Source: Beroe forskalii
Lineage: Eukaryota; Ctenophora; Nuda; Beroida; Beroidae
Assembly: GCA_011033025.1 (NCBI GenBank)
Contig: WFMF01000065.1
Coordinates: 558,001 to 622,000 of the forward strand
Length of the DNA: 64,000 nt
Direction: 5' to 3'
Shown piece after piece: positions 3,451 to 64,000 of this stretch. Numbering within the stretch: position 1 is the stretch's first letter; the number at the start of each line of letters is the position of its first letter. The position numbers were made by a program, and so were the translations under genes. The notes under the pieces were generated by a model. The model was not told where the DNA came from. It did no database searches and was given only the letters and a program-made list of their open reading frames with translations.

Positions 3451-5290
3451 ACCAGGTAGCTGTTACAAAGTACCAGTTACCTGGTACCTAATTAGCTTAT
3501 TGAGGAGTATCGTAGGAAGGTGCTATGGGTTCCCAAGGTAACTGTTACAAAGTACCAGTTACCTGGTACCTAATTAGCTTATTGAGGGGTATCGTAGGAA
3601 GGTGTTACCTGGGCTCCCAGGTAACTGCTATGGGCTCCCCAGGTACAAAGTATGGGTTCCCCAAGGTAACTGTTACAAAGTACCAGTTACCTGGTACCCT
3701 AATTAGCTTATTGAGGGTATCGTAGGAAGGTGCTATGGGCTCCCCAGGTAACTGTTACAAAGTACCAGTTACCTGGTACCTAATTAGCTTATTGAGGGGT
3801 ATCGTAGGAAGGTGCTATGGGCTCCCAGGTAGCTGTTACAAAGTACCAGTTACCTGGTACCTAATTAGCTTATTGAGGGGTATCGTAGGAAGGTGCTATG
3901 GGCTCCCCAGGTAACTGTTACAAAGTACCAGTTACCTGGTACCTAATTAGCTTATTGAGGGGTATCGTAGGAAGGTGCTATGGGCTCCCCAGGTAACTGT
4001 TACAAAGTACCAGTTACCTGGTACCTAATTAGCCTATTGAGGGGGTATCGGAGGAAGGTGCTATAGGTTACCAAGGTAACTGTTACAAAGTACCAGTAAC
4101 CTGGTACCTAATTAGCTTATTGAGGGGGTATCGTAGGAAGGTGCTCTGGGCTCCCCAGGTAACTGTTACAAAGTGCTAGTTACCTGCTACCTAATTAGCT
4201 TATTGAGGGGTATCATAGGAAGGTGCTATGGGCTCCCCAGGTAACTGTTGCAAAGTACTAGTTACCTGGTACCTAATTAGCTTATTGAGGGGTATCGTAG
4301 GAAGGTGCTATGGGCTCCCCAGGTAACTGTTACAAAGTACCAGTTACCTGGTACCTAATTAGCTTATTGAGGGGTATCGTAGGAAGGTGCTATGGGCTCC
4401 CAAGGTAACTGTTACAAAGTACCAGTTACCTGGTACCTAATTAGCTTATTGAGGGGTATCGTAGGAAGGTGCTATGGGCTCCCCAGGTAACTGTTACAAA
4501 GTACCAGTTACCTGGTACCTAATTAGCTTATTGAGGGGTATCGTAGGAAGGTGCTATGGGCTCCCCAGGTAACTGTTACAAAGTACTAGTTACCTGGTAC
4601 CTAATTAGCTTATTGAGGGTTGTCGTAGGAAGGCGCTATGGGCTCCCAAGGTAACTGTTACAAAGTACCAGTTACCAGTTACCTGGTACCTAATTAGCTT
4701 ATTGAGGGGTATCGTAGGAAGGTGCTATGGGCTCCCAAGGTAACTGTTACAAAGTACCAGTTACCTGGTACCTAATTAGCTTATTGAGGGGTATCGTAGG
4801 AAGGTGCTATGGGTTCCCAAGGTAACTGTTACAAAGTACCAGTTACCTGGTACCTAATTAGTTTATTGAGGGGTATCGTAGGAAGGTGCTATGGGCTCCC
4901 CAGGTAACCGTTACAAAGTACCAGTTACCTGGTACCTAATTAGCTTATTGAGGGGTATCGTAGGAAGGTGCTGTGGGCTCCCCAGGTAACTGTTACAAAG
5001 TACCAGTTACCTGGTACCTAATTAGCTTATTGAGGGGTATCGTAGGAAGGTGCTATGGGCTCCCAGGTAACTGTTTCAAACAAAGTTACCTGGTACCTAA
5101 TTAGCTTATTGAGGGGTATCGTAGGAAGGTGCTAGGCTCCCCAGGTAACTGTTACAAAGTACCAGTTACCTGGTACCTATTATTGAGGGGTATCGTAGGA
5201 AGGTGCTATGGGGTCCCCAGGTAACTGTTACAAAGTACCAGTTACCTGGTACCTAATTAGCTTATTGAGGAGTATCGTAGGAAGGTGCTG
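3451..5290. repeat. 82-bp minisatellite, about 22 copies
   Basis: A head-to-tail array with a unit of about 82 bp. Each unit contains GGTAACTGTTACAAAGTACC, an inverted GGTAACTG...CAGTTACC pair, CTGGTACCTAATTAGC, then TTGAGGGGTATCGTAGGAAG and a variable GCTCCCCA/GCTCCCAA junction. Copies differ by a few substitutions and small indels. One copy near 4670 carries an extra CAGTTAC step. A second, shorter block of the same unit lies at 6868-7316. Confidence 0.95.
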
Positions 5291-48836: not shown

Positions 48837-51800
48837 TCATCTGCATTCCATGTCCATCACAACCTCATGGCAGTTCTCTTTGTCATCATCTGAATCTCTA
48901 TCTGAACTGCAGTCATCCTCTTCACTCAGCAACGCTTCAGCCTCAAATGGATCAGTCCTCCTCAGATCAGTCGTCACATCCTCTGGTGTCACATCAGCTG
49001 TTGTCACATCTGGTGTCACACCATCTGTTGTCACATTCTGCTCCTCTGGCGTGGAACTCCCATCTCTTTCCCTCCCTGGAGGGGTGTAGCAGGTGGTACA
49101 CAAACTGATGAGATGTTTTGACATACAGGAGGGAGCCCCACATTCCTGACACAGTGTCATAACTCTGGGTACTTTCATCTTCTTCTCGTTGAACCAGGGC
49201 CCTCTCACACTCTCCAAGCAGTGGTAGCACCGCTTCTTATTTCCCTTCCCGCACTTATCAAACTTCTGTACCTGGTCCGTCTCAGGTACATCTGTGTACC
49301 TTCCCGCATACAGGTACTTCTTGTCATGAGTAACCTGGTACATCTTGGTAAGGATCACGTAGCTGTGTCCTGCGATGGGTCGGTTGTAGATGTGTGGTAG
49401 GGTCAGACTTCTGGCCAGCTCGTACCCAAAGTTACTCCCATAGATCTTCTTGCTGTTCAAGTTCACGATAATGGCAGAGTTCAGTCGAATGAGATCGAGG
49501 ATAAAAGCGAAACCACCCAGTGTCCATTTCAAACACTTCGGTTTACAAGTGTACTGAGGCGGTGATTGTTTTTGAGCTTCATGTCTGCCTTTGGTATACT
49601 CGTAAATCTGGGCTACTGCAGGCTTCTTCTTCTTGTCTTTGGATGTTCCCAGGATGGGATTGAGAGTTGTGAGAAATGTCCGATTCTTGAGCTTGCAGCA
49701 ATTCTCCGGACATTTTGAAGGCACCACATAGCTACAGAGATGGAGGTCTGCTGATGGCTCGTAGAACATGTTAGAGGAGAAAACTGGGTCTTCTTCTGGG
49801 ACAGTGCGGAGTTCCTCAGGGAAGCCTGGAGTTGAGGAAGAGAGCTCTCCTATCATAGAAATCTCCTTCGTGTCTCTCAACCACTCGGCTAGTCCTGCAC
49901 TTGTGTACGACCTGTTGATGATATCAGTTGTTAGATCATAGTGCATTAATTAGAACACGGATGCTCATCAATCAAGTTGGTCTCTGAATTTACACCACAT
50001 GCCCACCCTAGGATACTGGTTTTTTTCGTCGTTCAGGCCCAATTTTTTCCACCACAGGCCCACTTTTTAGCAGAAACTTGATCACAAAACGTGTCCATTT
50101 GAAACATCACTAATAGTGATGTTTCAAATAGACACGTTTTGTGATCAAGTTTCTACTAAAAAGTGGGCCTGTGGTGGAAAAAAAGTGGGCCTATTCACTA
50201 TTCACTGGTCCATTTCAGATAAAACAAGCCCAAATCCATTTGATACATAAAAAGCCCCAAATGAGACCACACAGACCCGTTTGAGACAAAACAATCTTGT
50301 ATGTCACCACCCTCTACCACCTTTAAGTTTATTTTCAAAAACTTCTCGGATTTCGAAATTTAATTCAAAATTTCAAAATACAGAAAAAAAAAAGCTTGTT
50401 CTAGGATGCCAGCCACCAGCGCATCCAGGAAAGAAAAGCTTACCGGCACTCACCTTCCTGTCGTGAGGTTTCTTCCCTTCAGAGAGTGTTGTTTGTCCAT
50501 CTCCTCGACCATGAACTGCACTTCCTGCTCTGGGGTTTTGTGGAAGTATCTGGTCGGGGGTTCCACTGGGGCGGTAGTGTACACATGAGCCCTGTACGTA
50601 TACTGACTTTCTACTCCGCTCACTGTCTTGAATATCAGTCCCCGGGTGTTGTTTATGTCCACTGGGATGTATTTCAACCCCAGCTTATCCTATACGGGTT
50701 GAGAATAATTGCCGTGTGGCGTGTATAGGGGAACTTAATATAAGGTGCATGTAACGTTCGTCGGTCGATCGAATGGAATTGGTCGATCGATCAACTTCAT
50801 TAGATCGACTGATGTGTTTTTAATAGAAAATCTTTAAGCTAGTAGGGAAACAACTAAATATTGCACATTTAAACACGATTCAAGTCAACAGGGAGCATTA
50901 AAACACATCATTCGTTCAACTGGAGTTGATCGATCGACCAATTCCATTCGATCGACCGACGAACGTTACGGGCGCCTAATACTGGAAATTGAATTTTCAT
51001 TTTCAATAATCTCAAACTAAACCTGAATTGACTCGTTTCTGATACTCAAATTCTTACAATTTCAGCTGAGCTATGGCATGTAAAAATTCCTGGATCCTGA
51101 TGAAATTGAATACGACCGCTATAATCCCTGCTGAGACATCAGTCATGTGCCATATTACGGAGTGAGATGAAAATGGCTGATGATATGGAGTGTGGACTGA
51201 TTGGCTGCAGTACTGACCTGTGTCCGTAGGAAATAGAAGTACTCTTCCAAGGTTAGGAACTTCTCAGGTACCACAGCTTCAGCGAAACGCTTGTTCATGT
51301 ACTCAAATATGTTACGAACCAATCCGAATTTGTCACTTCCTTGCCTCATCTTTTCCTCAACAAGGGAACAGGCTGGGTCAAATGACATGTGGTTCTTTAT
51401 GAAGTGGAATCTGAGAAAGTTGTTATTATTTTTTTAATGATTTTAAAAACATAGCCCAATGCGATATCCAATTTTTTAGCGATCTCTGTGCAGATCGCAG
51501 GATTTACGAAGGACTCGATAAAGTTGATCACAAATTTCCTGTTAGCGCGTCATTATGAAAAGACATTAAAATTGAATTGCGCGTCCCTATATGATAAAGA
51601 CGCGCAATTAAATTTTGATGTACTTTCGATGGAAATTGTATAGAAAGTTGACGCGCGAAAATTAAATTTGCGCGTCTTTATCGAGCCCTCAGTGAATAAA
51701 AATGTATCTGCACACACGCGTTATAGCCCCCTACCCCGTAATACTAATATTGAGCGATTAACTAACGAATTGGAGTGTTTCAACTTTTATTGAAAATAAT

Positions 51801-54800
51801 CACACGAGGCGTCGGCCGAGTCGACAATTTTCGATAACACACGATCCATGAGTTCGGTTTTGAATCAAAGCACCAATTTCAAATACCTGTTTCTGGTCAT
51901 GGTTGCTCCAAACATTGGCACATTATCCTTGCCCCCGAAGAGCCTGTCCACATTGGTATTATTGAGTTGCATCATCCCCCTGTAGTACATTAGTCCGATC
52001 ACTGCGTACACCTCCTCTCGAGTGACATAAGCACACTCCTTACTCGTGTTCCATGCTATCCCCTTCCAGTCGTCAACGTACCTGGACAGTGGGCATTAGA
52101 ACTTTAGTAATGCCATCACATTCCAGACCCCACCTACCTGGCCTGTTGGGATTAAGCAATAAATACGCCATCCTCTATGGTATATGTTGAACAGTGGAAG
52201 AGTCTTCCACTCTTCAAGTCCACAGTAGGCACCGAACATGGTATCCCTGCTATGTCCTTTGCGTTCTTTTATAAGGTAAAAATCGGCAAAAAATGCCACG
52301 ATCTGTGCAAAAATTATTTACAAAGGTTTTATTGTTGGAATGTGTTCAATAGGTCCCATGAATGTCTCAAAAGAGTGTTAGGTGCTACCTTGAAGGAAAA
52401 GTCAGGAGGGCCACGCCCTTTTTTCGACCGTGGAAATTTTGGGGAAAAATGAAAATTCAGTTTTAATATGATATATGACATGTGGGTACCCTAAACCTAT
52501 GTTTTTTGGGACGGGGAATCGATTCCAAACACTTTCAAAGTCGTATCTACCTTCCTTGACTCAAAACCGGCCACGCCCACTTTTTGCGTATGGGATTTTT
52601 TGACCACCACAAAGGTATTTTTCAGTGAAGTGCGATGTATGGCATGTAGGTACTCTAAACCTATGTTTTTTGGGACGAGAAATCGATTCCACGCATTATA
52701 AAAATCGTATCTACCTTCCTTGACTCAAAAACCGGCCACGCCCATTTTTTGCGCAAAGACATTTGAGGAGTCTAAAAGCTATTTTTTCAGATTAATGCGA
52801 TGTATGGCATGGGTACTCTAAACCCATGTTTTTGGGACGAGAAATCGATTCCACACATTATAAAGTCATTTCGACCTTCCTTGACCCAATATCAGCCACG
52901 CCCACATTTTGCGTATGGGATTTTGCCCACCATAAAGTTATTTTTCAGTTAAATACGATATTTAGGATGTAGGTACCTAACCCATGTGTTTGAACAAAGA
53001 AATGAATCGGTTCACACATTATCAAAGTCGTACTGAACTTCCTTGATCCGTTTGTGGCCAATACGGCTGCTTTTTGTGCAGAGTATTTTGACCAGTCTAA
53101 AATATATTGCTTCAGTCACATAAGATATAAGGCATGTTGGTACTCTAAACATGTTATTATCACAATTGATTATTGATTTCCTGAGTATCTGGTCAAACTA
53201 GCTGCAGTAGTTTAGGTTAGTCATTCGAGGTATAACACTTTTTGATGTTCTTCCCACATAAAAGTACATTGGTCTGCTATGGTCGTCCTCTACTGGTGAT
53301 AGACAAAATTCTGGAAACAAAACCAGCCCCGAAATCAAGGAGGCGCGGCGTCAACTAATGTCTAACCTATGAAACGGGTGATGTATCCCTATTCCTCCCA
53401 GCACACTACAAGGAATGAAATTTATTGAGGTGCTTTTCTGCTCCTGCCCGACCAGTTCCTTTCGGACTGCTACTGTCATAACTTCATAACTTTCTCCACT
53501 TCTAATTCTCTGTCTGTTGTGTGCTCTGCTATATCGAGGCTCTGCTGTTATTGAGGTGAAGTGTTTATCAATCCTCACTCACTGGCTTTGAATTTTTCTC
53601 TCCGTCTTTCACTGGGGTCGATAGATTCATTAAAATGTCAGACATTCACTCCTCCTTTCCATCCTGGATAGAAAGGATAAAATATGGACATCCACTTATG
53701 TTAATATCAATTCAATGCCCAGCTGCCCTCCAAGATTTCTATTCTGAATACTTCCTTGTCAGCTATCCCTGTAGGCATCCAACTTGATCCCCATTCTTCA
53801 CGACATGCCCAACCTTAAAACCTAACCTCTTGTTTTCTGCTCGGCCATTCTGTTAACCTGAGCACAGCGGGTTTTCTCTCTTGTCCTGCTTATCATTTCA
53901 GCCATGCCCATCTCTTTAACCCCGAGCAGGTTCGTTGTGTCCGAGTGTCCCACTATCACGAAGCCATTGCCAAGCGACCTCTTGAACCCTATTTTCTCGG
54001 CGAAATATCACTTTCAATGCTTCATTGGCAAAATTCCTGTTGTAGTAGAATTTCTGAAATTGTTTGCGATAGCAGCCAGAAGCCTGGTCAGCCCGAAGAG
54101 AGTTCCTCACAATTGGTCTTTCTGGTACCCCACATGTACAAATCTAATTACCATCCATATCAAGATATCACAATGATCCCGTTATGGCTTGGAAATCTTT
54201 TCATGGTAAGATGGTAGAGATTGGATTTATCTCTACAATTTATCCTGGATTTAGAGTACATACCTAAATGGGTGACTTATCACTTTTGGTCGCTGGGAAA
54301 GGAAACATGACTTTCGCTTGCTTACGTTAGGTGATCAAACATTTATCTGGTAAAATCACTTTCTTGGAATAGAGCCAAATTGGGGGGGGGGGGGCCAACC
54401 CCCTCAATTTTGGTGGATATCAAAAAATCGCCAATAGGGGTTTAATTTTGGGGGGTTTTGGGGGGTTTTAGGGGGCTTAATTCTTAGAGAAAAAGGGGAA
54501 TTTTTCTCAAATGGTACCATTTTTGTTCCTGATTTTTTGCACTATTTCAAAATGGTACCATTTTTGGTCGTGATTTTTGGCGGTTTTTAGAAATGGTACC
54601 ATTTTTGTTTCCGGTTTTTGGTACCATTTTTGTTTATAATTTTTGGAACTTTTATGAAATGGTACCATTTTCGATTCTGATTTTCAGCATCTTTTTCAAA
54701 TGGTACCATTTTGTTTCTGATTTTTTGCACCCATTCGAAATGGTACCATTTTTGTTCCTGATTTTTGCACCATTTCAAAATGGTACCATTTTTGGTCGTG

Positions 54801-57800
54801 ATTTTTTGCACCTTTTCAAAATGGTACCATTTTTGGTCGTGATTTTTGGCGATTTTTAGAAATGGTACCATTTTTGTTTCCGGTTTTTGGTACCATTTTT
54901 GTTTAGAATTTTTGGAACTTTTATGAAATGGTACCATTTTTCTTTCTGATTTTCAGCATCTTTTTCAAAATGGTACCATTTAGTTTCTGATTTTGCACCC
55001 TTCGAAATGGTACCATTTTTGTTCCTGATTTTTTGCACCATTTCAAAATGGTACCATTTTTGGTCGTGATTTTGGCGATTTTTGGAAATGGTACCATTTT
55101 TATTTCCGGTTTTGGTACCATTTTGTTTATAATTTTGGAACTTTTATGAGATGGTACCATTTTTGTTTCTGATTTTCAGTATATTTTTCAAATGGTACCA
55201 AATTTGTGTCCGATTTTATGCGCCTTTCGAAATGGTACCTTTTTTTATTCGTGATTTTGGCAACTTTTTCAAATGGTACCATTTTGTTTCTTCATTTTGG
55301 TGCTTTTTGAATCATACTAGAATATTTTTGCTGTCGATAGGGGTTTAATTTTGGGGTTTAATTTTTGCTGTCGATAGGGGTTTAATTTTGGGGGTTTAAT
55401 TTAACCCCCTGGTGGATATAACAAATTTCCAATACGGGGCTTAATTTTGGGGGGGTTTTGGGGTTGCCCCCCCCCCTAAATTCAGATTGGGTTCAGTGTT
55501 TGCTGGTTCTGCTGCACAACCAATACTCCTAGGCAAACTGCTCAACCTTTGGCTTTATCCATGGAGAAGAACCCTCCACCCTTCTACACCATGTCCTACA
55601 TCTATCCCCACATGTATGCATTATGTATGTGCACCTTAGGTGCTGGATGCCGTGAAGACCCTTCACAAGCGACTGAGGGGTGGCGACCATTAGGCGAATG
55701 TAAGTGAAATCCAAAAGCCTGTGCAGCAGAGGACAGATAGCTTAGAGACATAGCGGTTGTATATCAATATCGACCATTGGGCAATAGACCCCAATGACCA
55801 CAGATAAGAGGATTATCTGCCAATAAATACGCAAAAAGTGGGCATGGCTGGTATTGGGTCAAGGAAGGTCGACACGACTTTGATAATTTGCGGAATCAGT
55901 TTCTCGTCCCAAAAACATGGGTTTAGAGTACCTGCATGCCATATATCGCATTAATCTGAAAAATAGCTTTTCTACCTCAAAAATGACTTGCACAAAAATG
56001 GGCGTGGCCGGTTTTGAGTCAAGGAAGGTAGATACGACTTTTATAATGCGTGGAATCGATTTCTCGTCCCAAAAACATGGGTTTAGAGTACCTACATGCC
56101 ATACATCGAACTTCACTGAAAAATACCTTAGTGGCGGTCAGAAAATCCCATACGCAAAAAGTGGGCGTTGCCGGTTTTGGGGCAAAGAAGGTAGATACAA
56201 CTTTGATAATGTGCGGAATCGATTTCTCGTCCCAAAAAACATGGGTTTAGAGTACTTATATGCCATATATCGCATTAATCTTAAAAATAGCTTTTAGACC
56301 TCAAAAATGTCTTGCGCAAAAATGGGCGTGGCCGGTTTTGAGTCAAGGAAGGTAGATACGACTTTTATAATGCGTGGAATCGATTTCTCGTCCCAAAAAA
56401 CATAGGTTTAGAGTACCTACATGCCATACATCGAACTTCACTGAAAAATATCTTAGTGGCGGTCAAAAAATCCCATACGCAAAAAGTGGGCGTGGCCGTT
56501 TTCGGGGCAAAGAAGGTATATACGACTTTGATAATGTGCAGAATCGATTTCTCGTCCCAAAAAACATGGGTTTAGAGTACTTATATGCCATATATCGCAT
56601 TAATCTGAAAAATAGTTTCTAGACCTCAAAAATGTCTTGCGCAAAAATGGGCGTGGCCGGTTTTGGGTCAAGGAAGATAGATACGACTTTGAAAGCGTTT
56701 GGAATCGATTCCCCGTCCCAAAAAACATAGGTTTAGGGTACCCACATGCCATATATCATATTAAAACTGAATTTTCATTTTTCTCTCATAATTTCCCACG
56801 GTCGAAAAAGGGCGTGGCCCACCTGACTTTTCCCTTCAAGGTAGCACCTTAACACTCTTTGGATACCTTCATGGGACCCATTAGAACACATTCCAACAAT
56901 AAAACCTTTGTAAATAATTTTTGCACAGATGGTTTCATTTTTTCTCTTCTCTTATAACCTGGACAGTGGGCATTTATAAAAGCCATCGCCTTATCAATCC
57001 CCAAAGTACCTCAACAGTGGGCACTTAACATGGCATCCCCTTCCAGGCCTCAACCTACTTCGACTGTGGGCTCTAAACACGGCATCAATCATTTCGTAGG
57101 GGGGGCATTTGAATTCTATGTGAAAATTTCATGTGAACACATATAATGCTTTTCATGTGAACACATATAATGCTTTTTGATTTAAGTTAATCTGAAATCC
57201 AAATAAAGTCCAAGTGAATGAACTGACAAACAATTACCTCATTAATCGCTTCTGTTCCTCGGTAGGTGAAGGGTTCTCAGTTTCTAGTGACTTGAGAAAC
57301 TCCTCAAACACTGGATCACTGTCTCTGCTTTGTCCACCTGCAGTGTGCTCGCTGTTAGGAGCGCTCTCTGTTGATTCACTGTTGGAAGGTGTCTCACACT
57401 CAGGTACCTCAGCAGCATTTCTACTGGGGGACGGTGGTCCAGTAACCCCTGCTCCCTTGTCTACCTGAGACTCTGGAATCCCTGTCACGTCTACATCTGC
57501 TTCCTCGTCTGAGTCATCGTACAGAACTCCTTCTTTGTCGTAGTTAGACTCACTTCTTCTGGCTGCAAGGGAATGAATGGGTATGGGGGAAATTAGGGAG
57601 GTTTTACGAAGACATCCGTTTAATCACGCCGTAACCAATAAGTTGAGGGACGAAGGCAGCAAGAATAAAATTTCCCATTTTTCGAACCCTAATTTTCATC
57701 AAAGGGGAATCATGAAGAAGACATGAAGTAGGGGAGTTTCAAACATGATGGATGACCTTACCTTCTTTGACAGTCTGGAGGTAGTAAGCGATGCTATTGT

Positions 57801-58860
57801 TGGTATACTCGACTATCTTCCACACTACTTTGGGCTCCAGAAAGAAATCGAATGCTTGTCTTGGAGTGTTGATATGCTTGACAGCTGGTGTCAGTTGTGG
57901 AGGTTGTGTCTGTAGCGGGGTGGGAGGCGAGTCTGGGAGGTTGGTGGTGAAGTGGAGTCGTCTAGGCTCACTCTTCTTCTTCGTCTTCTTCTTCTCAGTG
58001 ATCCAACCTGCAGTTATGTACTGTGATAACATTTAATAGAGCTGCTAAAAGGGCATTTAGCGTTAGAAAAACAATGATAAGCTTGATACTATAGTGAGTA
58101 ACTGCGGGAGACTACCAGAAGACCTATATGAAAGTCCTCCGGAAGTCTCAGCACTTCCGGAGGACTCCCGGTAGTCTCCCGCAGTAATTCGCTCGAATGG
58201 CCGAGTGCAATACGTTCATTAGTCAGTCCATTTCAGGTGTAGGCTGTAGCTGTTCTCAGCGGGGTTACCTATCTTATCAAGTGTCAACGAACCGATTTGA
58301 AACGAGAGATCGCCACTGCACTCAACTCACCAACTTAGTAAGTTTTATTTCCTACATCCTATCCTTTGTCCTGACATAATGTATCATTGCCCTCTGTTAA
58401 ATCCTCCATTTGTTCTCAAACACGCATTTTGACCTTCCCTCCCCGTAGCACATACGGAATATTAACAAAAACATTGGTGCGGTGGCATTAACCCTTACTC
58501 TGACATCGGCGGTGGATCATTGTGTCACTCATAAAACACATTGATAAAACAGATTGTTCAGAGAGGGTTAGCACCATGCCCCAGCTTTATTATATTATTT
58601 TATCTGACCTACGCTACGCTCTTTTGACGCTGTAAATCATTAAATTGACCCCATTTCCCAGTTGACGAACAATTCAAAAGAACAGTTCACAGCAATTTAA
58701 CGGATCGAGCAACTATTCCTTATCTCCTACCTGTGATCAACCTGTCTTCCTTTTGTTCTGGCAAAGGATCGTAGTTGGAAGGCTTGATGGCAGTTTGCAG
58801 GTTTGAAATGGTTAACTTTGGCTTCTTCTTCCTTACTTTCTGTCCACTATTTGCGGACAT
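48837..58860 (-). CDS. piggyBac transposase-derived gene, copy 1 (complete, 7 exons)
   Basis: Exons in coding order: 58860-58731, 58007-57762, 57562-57238, 52081-51887, 51410-51218, 50689-50454, 49911-48837. All six junctions are GT-AG and phases agree, giving 2400 nt and 799 residues. The N-terminus is basic (MSANSGQKVRKKKPK). PiggyBac signatures follow in order: QAFDFFLEPKVVWKIVEYTN; TREEVYAVIGLMYYRGMMQL; a SDKFGLVRNIFEYMNKRF block; YIPVDINNTRGLIFKTVSG; SYTSAGLAEWLRDTKEISMI; GGFAFILDLIRLNSAIIV. At residues 670-716 is a cysteine-rich zinc module (CX2C, CX2CX4CX3H, CX2C). The three catalytic Asp are absent by alignment: LEEYF replaces the first DE motif, GRSYTS the second D, and KGRHEAQ the GGVD motif. 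An acidic Ser-rich exon (57238-57562) interrupts the N-terminal domain. No transposon ends flank it. Function is unknown; DNA or chromatin binding through the Cys-rich module is the natural guess. Confidence 0.85.
50038..50192. repeat. near-perfect 75-bp-arm hairpin in an intron of copy 1
   Basis: Arms CCACCACAGGCCCACTTTTT...ACATCACTA and TAGTGATGT...AAAAAGTGGGCCTGTGGTGG meet at a one-base centre. Only about three mismatches are seen. The matching intron of copy 2 (63230-63360) lacks it, so it is a later insertion or local inversion-duplication. Confidence 0.88.
50741..50980. mobile_element. GATC-palindrome MITE (AACGTTCGTCGGTCGATCG ends)
   Basis: An element of about 240 bp with inverted arms of about 60 bp (GTAACGTTCGTCGGTCGATC... 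and ...GATCGACCGACGAACGTTAC). It is rich in CGATCGAT palindromes. A solo left arm is at 21238-21296 inside an intron of the unidentified gene. The target duplication is unclear. Confidence 0.72.
51480..51720. repeat. imperfect inverted repeats with GCGCGTC motifs
   Basis: Several GCGCGTC/GACGCGC pairs (TTGCGCGTCCCTATATGATA, GACGCGCAATTAAATTTTGA, TTGCGCGTCTTTATCGA) form overlapping hairpins in the intron between exons four and five of copy 1. Confidence 0.55.
53091..54381. other. loop of the foldback element, no gene recognised
   Basis: Open frames at 53351-53578 and 53904-54176 have no family signature and do not fit the exon phases of the surrounding piggyBac-derived gene. Confidence 0.4.
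54382..55476. mobile_element. satellite-carrying MITE with AATGGTACCATT palindromes, copy 2
   Basis: A 1095-bp relative of 32270-32888. It has G-rich inverted ends (GGGGGGGGGGGGGCCAACCC and GGGGTTGCCCCCCCCCC) and AAATT on both sides. It carries ATATCAAAAAATCGCCAATA blocks and about twenty copies of the palindrome AATGGTACCATT, spaced mostly 30-45 bp. Here the linkers form a higher-order unit (TTTCCGGTTTTTGGTACC, GGAACTTTTATGAAATGG, GATTTTCAGCATCTTTTTC) repeated about three times. Confidence 0.9.
56958..57080. repeat. short repeats resembling the exon-four acceptor region
   Basis: Three diverged copies of a unit of about 50-60 bp (ACCTGGACAGTGGGCATT, ACCTCAACAGTGGGCACTTA, ACTTCGACTGTGGGCTCTAA, with GGCATCCCCTTCCAG between). 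They resemble the sequence around the exon-four boundary at 52060-52100. The foldback element lies between the two sets. Confidence 0.6.
58090..58190. repeat. CG-rich hairpin in the first intron of copy 1
   Basis: Inverted arms ACTGCGGGAGACTACCAGAA and AGTCTCCCGCAGTA enclose a nested AGTCCTCCGGAAGT/CACTTCCGGAGGACT hairpin. Confidence 0.75.
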
Positions 58861-60195
58861 GGTGCACTCTTATTTCAGTATCACTTAACAAAACTACTGG
58901 TGACAAAAATACCGTTTATAAGAACAACGCAAATCAAACCGTCCACAAAGAGAAAATTAACGAAAGGCCAAAATAAAATGAACTTCCTACTTTCCTACAA
59001 TTTTACGGGCCCGATGATAGCGTTGTTTACTTTGTTAATTAGATTGGGGCTGGATTTGCTGTCAGGTATTATACTTGCACACAGCGTTTACACACCATTT
59101 CAAGATATCGAGTGTAATCGAATTAGTGGAAAGCTTCTTGCTCCATCAAGGGTTAACATTATCCGGCGGGGCTGCTCTTAGAATGTGGAATAACCCGAAA
59201 TCCTGTGTAATGCACAGTGAGATGTGTGTAATACTGTGCGGTAACAATATACAATGTAAATAAAAGGGCCAATATAAATGTAATACTGTGTGGTAAAGTT
59301 CGTAATTCTTTGCTGATAGATATCACGATACATTGTATGTCGGGCAGCTGAACTACTGCACATGCAATAATAACCGAGAATGTAGTCTCTGCTGTGCCTT
59401 ATTGCTTTATTGGTGTGCGGACGGGAGTACTCGGGCGGAGTATCGTCCTGGAAGAGTTTTGTGAGGAAAGTTTTAAAGCATGTATAGCATCTGTGGTGTC
59501 CCGACTGTTTACTTCGAGGTGAAATACGGCGCTCGTTGTGCTTTTGTTGCGCGCAAATATGCTTTTTGCGGTGCGTGGTAGAACAACAAGAATTGCGCCT
59601 GCCGGCGCATTTCTTTTGCCCGTTGATCCTAAATACAGGCGCTTAATTTCCTGTTCCCCGGGGCCGGTATAAAAACATGCCGTCATTTGATCGTCGACCA
59701 TTGCCTGTCTCGCTGATTGACACGATGAGTTTACGATACGATACTGCTATCAAGTGGCACATCATAAAACCAAAGTACCACTACCAACATCATTGAATCA
59801 ATTTTATAAATATTTCATAAATAAGTATAGACTGAAAACAATAATCGCGAGCTCGTTTTCTCTAACATCGGCGAGCGCTTAAATTTCATGAAACTGTTAA
59901 GTTCGTACGTGATCACAGATCGCACGTGCATTTTATTGCGCGCGCAACACCTGCCATGTTCTGATTGCGCGCAACACTTGTCATGTTATGTGTTCTGTTT
60001 GCGCGCGTACCCATTCATTCTTGGTCGTTTCCTTATGAGTTTTGTTTGGCATCTCGTGCTCACATCAAACGTTGCACATTATCAAGCGTTTCTATTGAAG
60101 ACAATAATTATATACGATATCGCATTATTTTCTGTCCTTGCAAGTTTCTGCAGTTTGAGTTTATGTTGCTCAGCAGGCAGCTATCACAGTCAGAG
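58861..60195. other. intergenic between the two piggyBac-derived copies, part 1
   Basis: This is the promoter side of copy 1. No transposon inverted repeats pairing with the 3' side of copy 1 were seen. The sequence is AT-rich with some CG-rich patches (59560-59600, 59940-60010). Confidence 0.4.
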
Positions 60196-61680: not shown

Positions 61681-64000
61681 TCACTTGCATTCCATTGCAT
61701 GCACAACTTCATAGCAGTTCTCTTTATCATCATCCTCAAACTCCATTTTGATGTCAACTGAGTTTGCGTCTGATCTGTCTTCTACCATATTCTCTCCAGC
61801 CCTCACATAACTTCTCACCCCGCTCAGATGACCCGTTGCCACACCGTCTGTTTTCACATCCTCCGTTTTCACATCCTCACTTTTGACATCCTCTGTTTTA
61901 AAGTACTCTGGTGGTACATATTCTGGTGTCACATCCTCTGTTGTCACATCCTGACCCTCTGTTGTCACCTCCTGATCCTCTGTTGTCACATCCTGCTCCT
62001 CTGGTATCACATCCTGATCTTCTGGTGTCACATCCTGATCTTCTGTTTTCACTTTCTCTGCTGTTACATCTTGATATTCTGGTGTCCCAACATCTGTTGT
62101 CATATCCTGATTCTCTGGTTTCACATCCTGATCTTCCGTTTTCGTATTCTCTGTTGTCACATCCTGCTCCTCTGGTGTCACATCACTCGTTGTCAGTGTC
62201 ACATCCTGATCCTCTGTTGTCCCACTCTGATCCCCAGTTGGCACATTCTCTGATGTCACATCTTTATCCTCTGCTGTCGCATCCGGATGCTCTGGTGTCA
62301 CTTCCTTTGGTGTCACCTTCTCTGTTGTCACATCCTGCTCCTCTGTTGTCACACTCTCTGTTGTCACACTCCCATCCCCTGCACCCCTCTCTGGAGGGGT
62401 GTAGCAGGTTGTACACAGACTGATGAGATGTTTACTCACGCAGGAGGGAGCCCCACATTCCTGACACAGTGCCATTGTCTTGGGCACTTTCGCCTGCCTC
62501 TCTCTGCACCAAGGTCCCCTGGCATTTTCCATGCAGTGGTAACACCGCTTCTTTTTGCCCTTCCCGCACTTCTCAAACTTCTGTAGCTGGTCCGTTTCAG
62601 GTACATCTGTGTACTTGCCAGCAGACAGGAACTTCTTGTCATGGGTAACTTGGTACATCTTCGTGAGGATCACGTAGCTGTGTCCTGGGATGGATCGGTT
62701 CTCAATGAGCGGCAGGGTCAGACTTCTGGCTAGCTCACACCCGAATTCATCCATGCTGATCTTCTTGTTGTTGTTCATGCTCACGATAATCGCTGAGTTC
62801 ATTCGGATAAGATCGAGGATAAAGGCAAAACCACCCGTTGTCCATCTATAACACTTCGGTTTGCAAGTGTACTGGGGCGGCGATTGTTTCTGAGCTTCAT
62901 GTCTGCCTTTGGTATACTCGTAAATCTGGGCTACTGCTGGCTTCTTCTTCTTGTCTTTGGATGTCCCCAGGATGGGATTGAGAGTTGTGAGAAATGTCCG
63001 ATTCTTGAGCTTGCAGCAATTCTCCGGGCATTTTGAAGGCACCACATAGCTACAGAGATGGAGGTCTGCTGCTGACTCGTAGAACATGTTAGAGGAGAAA
63101 ACTGGGTCTTCTTCTGGGACAGTGCGGAGTTCCTCAGGGAAGCCTGGAGTTGAGGAAGAAAGCTCTCCTACCAGAGATATCTCCTTCGTGTCTCTCAGCC
63201 ACTCGGCTAGTCCTGCACTTGTGTACGACCTGTCAATAGTATCACTGACGGACATGGGGCACTAATTAGAGCACAGATTCTGATCAATCAAGTTGGACGC
63301 TAAATCTACAATAATTCTCTGAATTTCTATGCCATGATTCCCATCTAACCCGGTACTCACCTTCCTGTCGTGAGGTTTCTTCCCTTCAGAGAGTGTTGTT
63401 TGTCCATCTCCTCGACCATGAACTGTACTTCCTGTTCTGGGGTTTTGTGGAAGTATCTGGTTGGGGGTTCCACTGGGGCGGTAGTGTACACATGAGCCCT
63501 GTACGTGTACTGACTTTCTACTCCGCTCACTGTCTTGAATATTAGCCCTTTGGTATTGTTGATGTCCACTGGGATGTACTTCAGGCCCAGCTTATCCTGT
63601 AAGGATGTAATATCTAGGCTCATTTGCAATGGTTTACATAGTGGACTTTTTTACTAGCTAACTCACGAAAATTTGCATGCCAATGCAGTTGAATTAAAAT
63701 TTTAACAAAAATATGCTGCTTTCAGAATTTTGATTCCCGGCCCATTTCATGATTTACTGTAAATCATGAAATTGGGGGCTTTTTAATTTTGGGCTGAAAT
63801 TGACTTTTTGGGCCATAAATGACCATTTAAGTATTATGAAGTTTGATGGAAATGGCGTACATAATAAGGTAGATTTTGGTCTGGATGATGACACTTACCG
63901 TTGTTATTAGGAAATAGAAGTACTCCTCCACAGTTAGGAACTTCTCTGGTACCACAGCCTCAGCGAAACGCTTGTTCATGTACTCGAACATGTTACGAAC
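61681..64000 (-). CDS. piggyBac transposase-derived gene, copy 2 (3' part, runs off window)
   Basis: Visible exons in coding order: from beyond 64000 to 63899, 63596-63361 and 63229-61681. They match exons five, six and seven of copy 1 (236 nt in both middle exons) and use the same splice sites. The encoded blocks are VRNMFEYMNKRFAEAVVPEK; KYIPVDINNTKGLIFKTVSG; SYTSAGLAEWLRDTKEISLV; GGFAFILDLIRMNSAIIVSM; and the same cysteine-rich zinc module (CYHCMENARGPW, LCQECGAPSCVSKHL, CTTCY). The exon-five end reads FLITT instead of FLRTQ. After the zinc module is a Thr/Glu/Asp/Val-rich tail of about 160 residues (VTTEDQDVTTE-type repeats, 61850-62390), much longer than in copy 1, before the shared acidic end. 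Head-to-tail placement indicates tandem duplication. Remaining 5' exons lie past the window end. Confidence 0.85.
61850..62390 (-). repeat. coding minisatellite in copy 2 (VTTEDQD-type units)
   Basis: About 25 imperfect units of 21-24 bp (TGTGACAACAGAGGATCAGG on the coding strand), all multiples of three so that the frame is kept. The equivalent stretch of copy 1 (48960-49050) has about six units. Confidence 0.88.

Follow-up and report, generated by a model that had tools for sequence, protein, structure and literature searches.

We analysed a 64,000-nucleotide stretch of the genome of the ctenophore Beroe forskalii (assembly GCA_011033025.1, contig WFMF01000065.1, positions 558,001 to 622,000 of the forward strand; hereafter the window). 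It contains a seven-exon gene related to the piggyBac transposase of Trichoplusia ni (T. ni) and, beside it, a tandem copy that runs beyond the window end. The two genes (copy 1 and copy 2) probably represent a domesticated host gene of the piggyBac superfamily, a tandem pair of T. ni-like descent that is catalytically dead and binds DNA. Domestication had been proposed in a preliminary description of this DNA. It is supported by the presence of a single locus in the genome (two copies and one decayed fragment), by introns common to both copies, by purifying selection between them (ratio of nonsynonymous to synonymous substitution rates, dN/dS, of 0.259), by relatives in other public sequences, and by the loss of the catalytic triad while the zinc ligands were kept.

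Gene model and tandem copy

Copy 1 lies on the minus strand, where seven exons from 58860 to 48837 splice in phase into 799 codons and a stop, and all six introns are GT-AG. The splice check confirmed the exon number, exact phase, coordinates and protein length of the preliminary description. Copy 2 adjoins copy 1 on the same strand, from 61681 to 66332 in coordinates extended beyond the window end. It repeats exons 2-7 of copy 1, with no recognisable exon 1, so that the tandem paralogue noted earlier is indeed present next door. The features of both copies are listed below; D268, D346 and D447 are the catalytic aspartates of T. ni piggyBac, and P0007 is one of the relatives in other public sequences.

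58731..58860, minus strand: exon 1 of copy 1, with the ATG, residues 1-43, called from its open frame and GT donor alone
57762..58007, minus strand: exon 2 of copy 1; its stretch TPRQAFDFFL...TNNS weakly (4 bits) resembles the start of piggyBac proteins
57238..57562, minus strand: exon 3 of copy 1, with an acidic insert; the first 35 residues are the same in copy 1 and copy 2
51887..52081, minus strand: exon 4 of copy 1 (YVDDWKG...MTRNR), 25.4 bits with PF13843 as a lone frame
51218..51410, minus strand: exon 5 of copy 1; the equivalent of D268 is E354 (codon 51247-51245)
50454..50689, minus strand: exon 6 of copy 1; the equivalent of D346 is G441 (codon 50458-50456); the relative P0007 is 91% identical
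48837..49911, minus strand: exon 7 of copy 1, with the remaining catalytic domain, the D447 equivalent E553 (codon 49580-49578), the C-terminal region, the cysteine-rich domain and an acidic repeat tail
49089..49229, minus strand: cysteine-rich domain (CRD) of copy 1, C670-C716, CX2C...CX2CX4CX3HX4CX2C, in T. ni order
61681..63229, minus strand: exon 7 of copy 2, with an enlarged acidic repeat tail
63361..63596, minus strand: exon 6 of copy 2, with TTG at the D346 site as in copy 1
63899..64000, minus strand: exon 5 of copy 2, the part within the window (full extent 63899-64091)
64356-64550, 64794-65085 and 66096-66332 (extended coordinates, outside the window), minus strand: exons 4, 3 and 2 of copy 2

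The spliced 799-residue protein matched the Pfam profile PF13843 (DDE_Tnp_1_7) at 105.1 bits (E 6e-30), above the curated cut-off of 22.4. This check, suggested in the preliminary description, bore out the piggyBac homology. When seven exon frames were scanned unspliced (copy 1 exons 3-7 and copy 2 exons 6 and 7), matches came from four, at 20.0 (copy 1 exon 7), 22.8, 25.4 (copy 1 exon 4) and 26.1 bits (copy 1 exon 5); the exon 3 frame and the exon 6 frames of both copies gave no match. For exons 2-7, nucleotide similarity between the copies stopped within ~20 nt of each predicted exon edge, with two exceptions, where it ran 62 nt into intron 3 and 83 nt into intron 6; in the repeat-coded tail of exon 7 the match was piecewise only. 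Five introns were common to both copies, with GT-AG at the same place and phase, and comparison of intron against intron by BLAST returned two short similar stretches only, one each in introns 3 and 6. Furthermore, two relatives, P0002 for exon 7 and P0007 for exon 6, lose homology at the boundary of intron 6, in keeping with a common splice position. Taken together, the spliced versus lone-frame scores, the agreement of copy 2 at the exon edges and the end of P0002 and P0007 homology at intron 6 indicate that the exon chain is one gene.

A comparison of the copies, likewise proposed at the outset, gave a dN/dS of 0.259 (bootstrap 0.186-0.354) over the 647 codons aligned up to the end of the CRD and 0.317 over all 741 codons, showing purifying selection. 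Exon 6 was nearly frozen (dN 0.008, dS 0.289). Neither copy contains an internal stop. When neutral change was simulated by scattering 214 substitutions at random over the core of copy 1, an average of 8.2 stops arose and none of 2,000 runs was stop-free. A chance exon chain was rejected by this simulation together with the 105-bit spliced match and the agreement of copy edges.

The dS between the copies was uneven, at ~0.1 in exon 2 and residues 405-539 and ~0.3-0.6 elsewhere, which suggests gene conversion between copy 1 and copy 2. Low-dS patches lie at window positions 49620-49911, 50454-50566 and 57762-58007. At the 38 columns of the exon 7 core that differ between the copies, P0002 shared the residue of copy 1 in 23 cases, that of copy 2 in 4 and neither in 11; since it sides mostly with copy 1, copy 2 seems to have changed more. 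The acidic tail of copy 2 holds greatly expanded tandem repeats (61835-62371, units of 15, 21, 42 and 57 bp), and that of copy 1 just a few repeat units (48973-49036).

Loss of the catalytic triad

In alignments made with three MAFFT modes, the D268, D346 and D447 columns held E354, G441 and E553 in copy 1 and the same residues in copy 2. The same columns were D/D/D in all nine comparison proteins, namely P0001, the only full-length protein match to the gene, and the eight best-scoring among the 15 PF13843 matches of the B. forskalii genome. A phmmer alignment to T. ni piggyBac (PDB 6x67) placed the triad identically, with K556 at D450. The triad had been described as lost at all three sites, and it is gone, with the refinement that two of the changes are conservative, from aspartate to glutamate. 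The apparent aspartate in the IDRSYTS frame of copy 2 had been called intronic; indeed, its codon is the end of intron 6 (ATTGACAG before the boundary and GTCG after it), where copy 1 has Asn.

The third site was compared across seven family sequences (copy 1, copy 2 and five exon 7 relatives), with E in five, V in P0002 and D in P0006. P0007, the only relative spanning the D346 site, also has TTG there, and the first site was compared in the two copies only.

In piggyBac mutants, aspartate was reported to be specifically required at D268, D346 and D447, and in one assay of Table 2 of that study D268E and D346E gave no excision and D447E ~0.3% of control (PMC2533014). Of the three changes, glycine at the D346 position is the most difficult to reconcile with activity, since both D268 and D346 coordinate a metal ion in the structure of piggyBac (PMC7351741). 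Alanine mutants at the three positions lost all transposition steps and kept end binding (Mitra et al., cited in PMC2533014). With the triad replaced by E, G and E, the protein should be unable to cut or join DNA.

Conservation of the zinc module

All eight zinc ligands (C670, C673, C696, C699, C704, H708, C713 and C716) are present in copy 1 and invariant in the seven family sequences. They align with those of the T. ni piggyBac CRD (6x67), with C-x3-H here versus C-x2-H there, in agreement with the earlier claim that the module is intact. A profile built from the exon 7 pieces, the five relatives and P0001 matched T. ni piggyBac through the whole CRD (E 9.4e-21); the CRD alone as a query against the PDB gave chance-level matches only. 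The ligand order is the T. ni CxxC-CxxC-CxxH-CxxC and not the His-Cys arrangement of PiggyMac, and the domain has a net charge of +4 and an isoelectric point (pI) of 8.8. The piggyBac CRD is described as positively charged and DNA-binding, whereas that of PiggyMac is negative and does not bind DNA (PMC8086355). In piggyBac, the CRD acts as a dimer that binds a 19-bp palindrome and bends it, and contacts with the transposon ends are made by the helical domain (PMC7351741).

Relatives, genomic occurrence and placement

Other public sequences contained five relatives for exon 7 and one for exon 6 (P0002-P0007, known as protein letters only), and the five were 52-64% identical over the aligned exon 7. 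P0001 (630 aa, intact D/D/D) matched over its full length at 25% identity; it is predicted on a 2.4-kb contig, which leaves little room for introns. Scans of viral contigs and of prokaryote genome contigs found no relatives. The closest solved structure by sequence was T. ni piggyBac (6x67), which matched the spliced protein with an E value of 4.7e-8.

A protein search of the 216-Mb assembly returned copy 1, copy 2 and a fragment on another contig (C225, ~511390-511720), counts that are lower bounds. The fragment is a decayed piece of ~0.3 kb that shares 83-84% identity with the 5' portion of exon 7 and carries 38 bp of intron 6, stops and gaps. Judged by these features, it is a DNA-level fragment of a third copy and shows what an unconstrained copy looks like.

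One of the 15 PF13843 matches in the genome is copy 2. In a tree of 12 proteins, a split of 99/99 united the copies, which sit on a long branch, with T. ni piggyBac and P0001, and eight transposases of the same genome fell apart from them; in the alignment, T. ni piggyBac filled only 39% of the columns. This tree led us to reject the idea that the gene descends closely from one of the eight other piggyBac loci examined. Three piggyBac loci (L005, L007 and L008) have open frames of 806-848 aa with D/D/D and long N-terminal extensions and form their own clade.

Flanks and neighbouring sequence

Neither inverted repeats nor paired TTAACC/GGTTAA were found in the 1.2-kb and 2.8-kb flanks of copy 1, where a single unpaired GGTTAA lies at 59151; within these flanks the absence of terminal repeats, as first described, held up. 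An active transposon is rejected by the lack of repeats in the flanks tested and the loss of the triad.

One further feature lies within copy 1:

52301..56930, no strand assigned: a 4.6-kb repeat element with inverted ends that makes up most of intron 3 and is not part of the gene

The inverted ends of the element read ATCTGTGCAAAAATTATTTACAAAGG; its arms are made of tandem repeats of ~160 bp, and it also has a 41-bp array that contains TGGTACCA. Its end sequence, with up to two mismatches, had 147 matches across the genome (75 forward, 72 reverse) and a reversed control had none; many of the listed matches are inverted pairs 3-5 kb apart, and the element looks like a member of a foldback-type family. 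Intron 3 of copy 2 measures 243 bp and could not accommodate such an element. The neighbourhood also includes armadillo-repeat frames (plus strand, 45.1-47.5 kb) and, on the far side of copy 2, ShK and papain-like frames.

The mitochondrial contig of the assembly (C1134) has a GC content of 17.5%, reads TGA as Trp and carries all frames of at least 90 aa on one strand; cox1 was assigned by Pfam match and the other mitochondrial frames were labelled by eye. The long frame after nad5 (from 7546) opens with ~55 residues that also open a frame at 4311, suggesting a duplication. Published B. forskalii mitogenomes are reported with a mean GC of 17.3%, the same code and frames of unassigned identity after ND5 (PMC6991124).

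Interpretation and alternatives

We favour a model in which a T. ni-like transposase gave rise to a host protein that kept the catalytic scaffold, the flanking helical region and the cross-brace zinc domain. That the binding parts are intact and the catalytic core is dead suggests a protein that binds DNA but does not cut it. The protein, if expressed, would be a nuclear dimer whose helical DNA-binding region and basic CRD recognise specific DNA, with no cleavage. It may serve as a transcription or chromatin factor, with the variable acidic C-terminal tail contacting partners.

Several observations weigh against this model. P0006 retains aspartate at the third catalytic site, and the two glutamates that replace lost aspartates are still acidic. 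Table 2 of the mutant study, as printed, gives D268E 9.96e-3 in a second assay, above the positive control of 3.15e-3 (PMC2533014), a figure that we cannot reconcile with that paper's own conclusion. Structure predictions were of low confidence (predicted local distance difference test, pLDDT, 31 for exon 7 with two sequences and 40 for the CRD stretch with eight), so the triad positions rest on sequence alignment. When P0001 was added to the alignment, five of the eight ligand columns were still invariant. The PiggyMac-type CRD binds histone H3, and the CRDs of the Paramecium PgmL proteins vary widely in pI, with only that of PgmL4 acidic, yet all bind H3 (PMC8086355); CRD type is thus no predictor of the ligand. 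The dN/dS value comes from a single pair of paralogues that shows signs of conversion between its members, and so does not prove that each copy is constrained by itself. At the 5' end of the chain, exon 1 had no comparative support, with no homologue within the 93 kb searched, copy 2 included. Finally, the spliced query against 4,262 candidates returned one protein (P0001), no spliced relative and no transcript support.

The CRD could instead make the protein a chromatin reader that binds histone tails and not DNA, as in the ciliate PiggyMac and Tpb2. The CRDs of domesticated ciliate piggyBac proteins do bind histone H3, and the ligand is held not to be predictable from the CRD fold alone (PMC8086355); given a basic domain with ligands in T. 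ni and not PiggyMac order, we regard this as unlikely. The protein might also be a dead partner subunit of an active piggyBac transposase, and the same genome does hold piggyBac loci with D/D/D and long open frames. However, none of the eight same-genome transposases examined groups with the gene in the tree, which leaves it without a visible close active partner, and we know of no programmed DNA elimination in ctenophores. Even with the precedent of the PgmL proteins, which are without an intact triad, keep the CRD and act in complex with Pgm (PMC8086355), such a role appears improbable. Another conceivable role is repression of piggyBac elements, in which the protein would occupy their ends and keep the active enzyme out. 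A dead transposase with end-binding ability can act as a competitor of the active one. In piggyBac, end binding survives mutation of the triad (PMC2533014). However, the eight same-genome transposases examined include no close relative and the genome search gave two copies and one fragment only, which leaves no obvious target family, and we consider this role distinctly improbable here.

Both PGBD5 and the present gene have an intron-split transposase domain and have lost catalytic aspartates (PMC3902484), as would be expected if they were orthologues from a single domestication predating the ctenophore/chordate split. That prospect is very remote, because PGBD5 is described as having no recognisable CRD (PMC8086355), which is intact here, because it has been traced no further back than lancelet (PMC3902484), and because the nearest relatives here are T. 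ni-like. It is barely credible that the locus is a degenerating transposon or an artefact of chance exon joining. Although the genome is not short of piggyBac sequences (15 PF13843 matches, including copy 2), the frames lack internal stops where 8.2 were expected (0 of 2,000 simulations stop-free), the exon edges with GT-AG are common to both copies, and five relatives retain 52-64% identity over the aligned exon 7.

Beyond the domesticated, DNA-binding gene pair favoured above, we tentatively put forward a broader scenario, with the chances somewhat against it. One early conversion of a piggyBac transposase may have given comb jellies a family of regulators that bind DNA in a sequence-specific way, in which catalysis was discarded, the end-binding machinery (helical domain and T. 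ni-type CRD) was kept under selection and the gene was duplicated in the Beroe lineage. This would be an event like that of PGBD5 and independent of it and, if true, would have occurred in what may be the sister group of all other animals.

Comparison with known systems

Few domesticated piggyBac genes are on record, three by a 2013 count (PMC3902484). An earlier description of one in ctenophores was not found in the open-licence literature, subscription papers being outside the search. The gene offers a non-bilaterian comparison for piggyBac domestication and bears on how a host might use a piggyBac protein that is able to bind and unable to cut. A second intron-split, triad-less case, one with a T. 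ni-type CRD, would separate the binding half of the transposase from the cutting half.

Like the gene described here, PGBD5 has a transposase domain split by introns, has lost catalytic aspartates (three of four) and is without terminal repeats (PMC3902484), and it is reported to be under purifying selection (PMC12324416). It differs in having no recognisable CRD (PMC8086355), in contrast to the intact T. ni-type CRD of the ctenophore gene, and in its range from vertebrates to lancelet (PMC3902484), against a tandem pair in a ctenophore. The role of PGBD5 is disputed: genome rearrangement and transposition have been reported for it (PMC4625184), whereas its 2013 authors found no association with DNA or chromatin (PMC3902484). 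Paramecium PgmL1-5 also have a triad that is not intact, zinc ligands kept in the CRD and several paralogues, but these ciliate proteins have the PiggyMac-type CRD order and act with active Pgm in DNA elimination (PMC8086355).

T. ni piggyBac (6x67) is colinear with the gene through the catalytic domain and CRD, with the same ligand order and one residue fewer between the fifth Cys and the His. It is a single uninterrupted reading frame. Unlike the ctenophore gene, it belongs to a mobile element with an intact DDD and terminal inverted repeats (PMC7351741). P0001, which groups with the ctenophore gene and T. ni piggyBac in the tree, differs from the former in its intact D/D/D, and its 2.4-kb contig could accommodate few introns. 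The combination of an intron-split transposase domain, a lost triad and a T. ni-type CRD thus fits neither PGBD5 nor the PgmL proteins.

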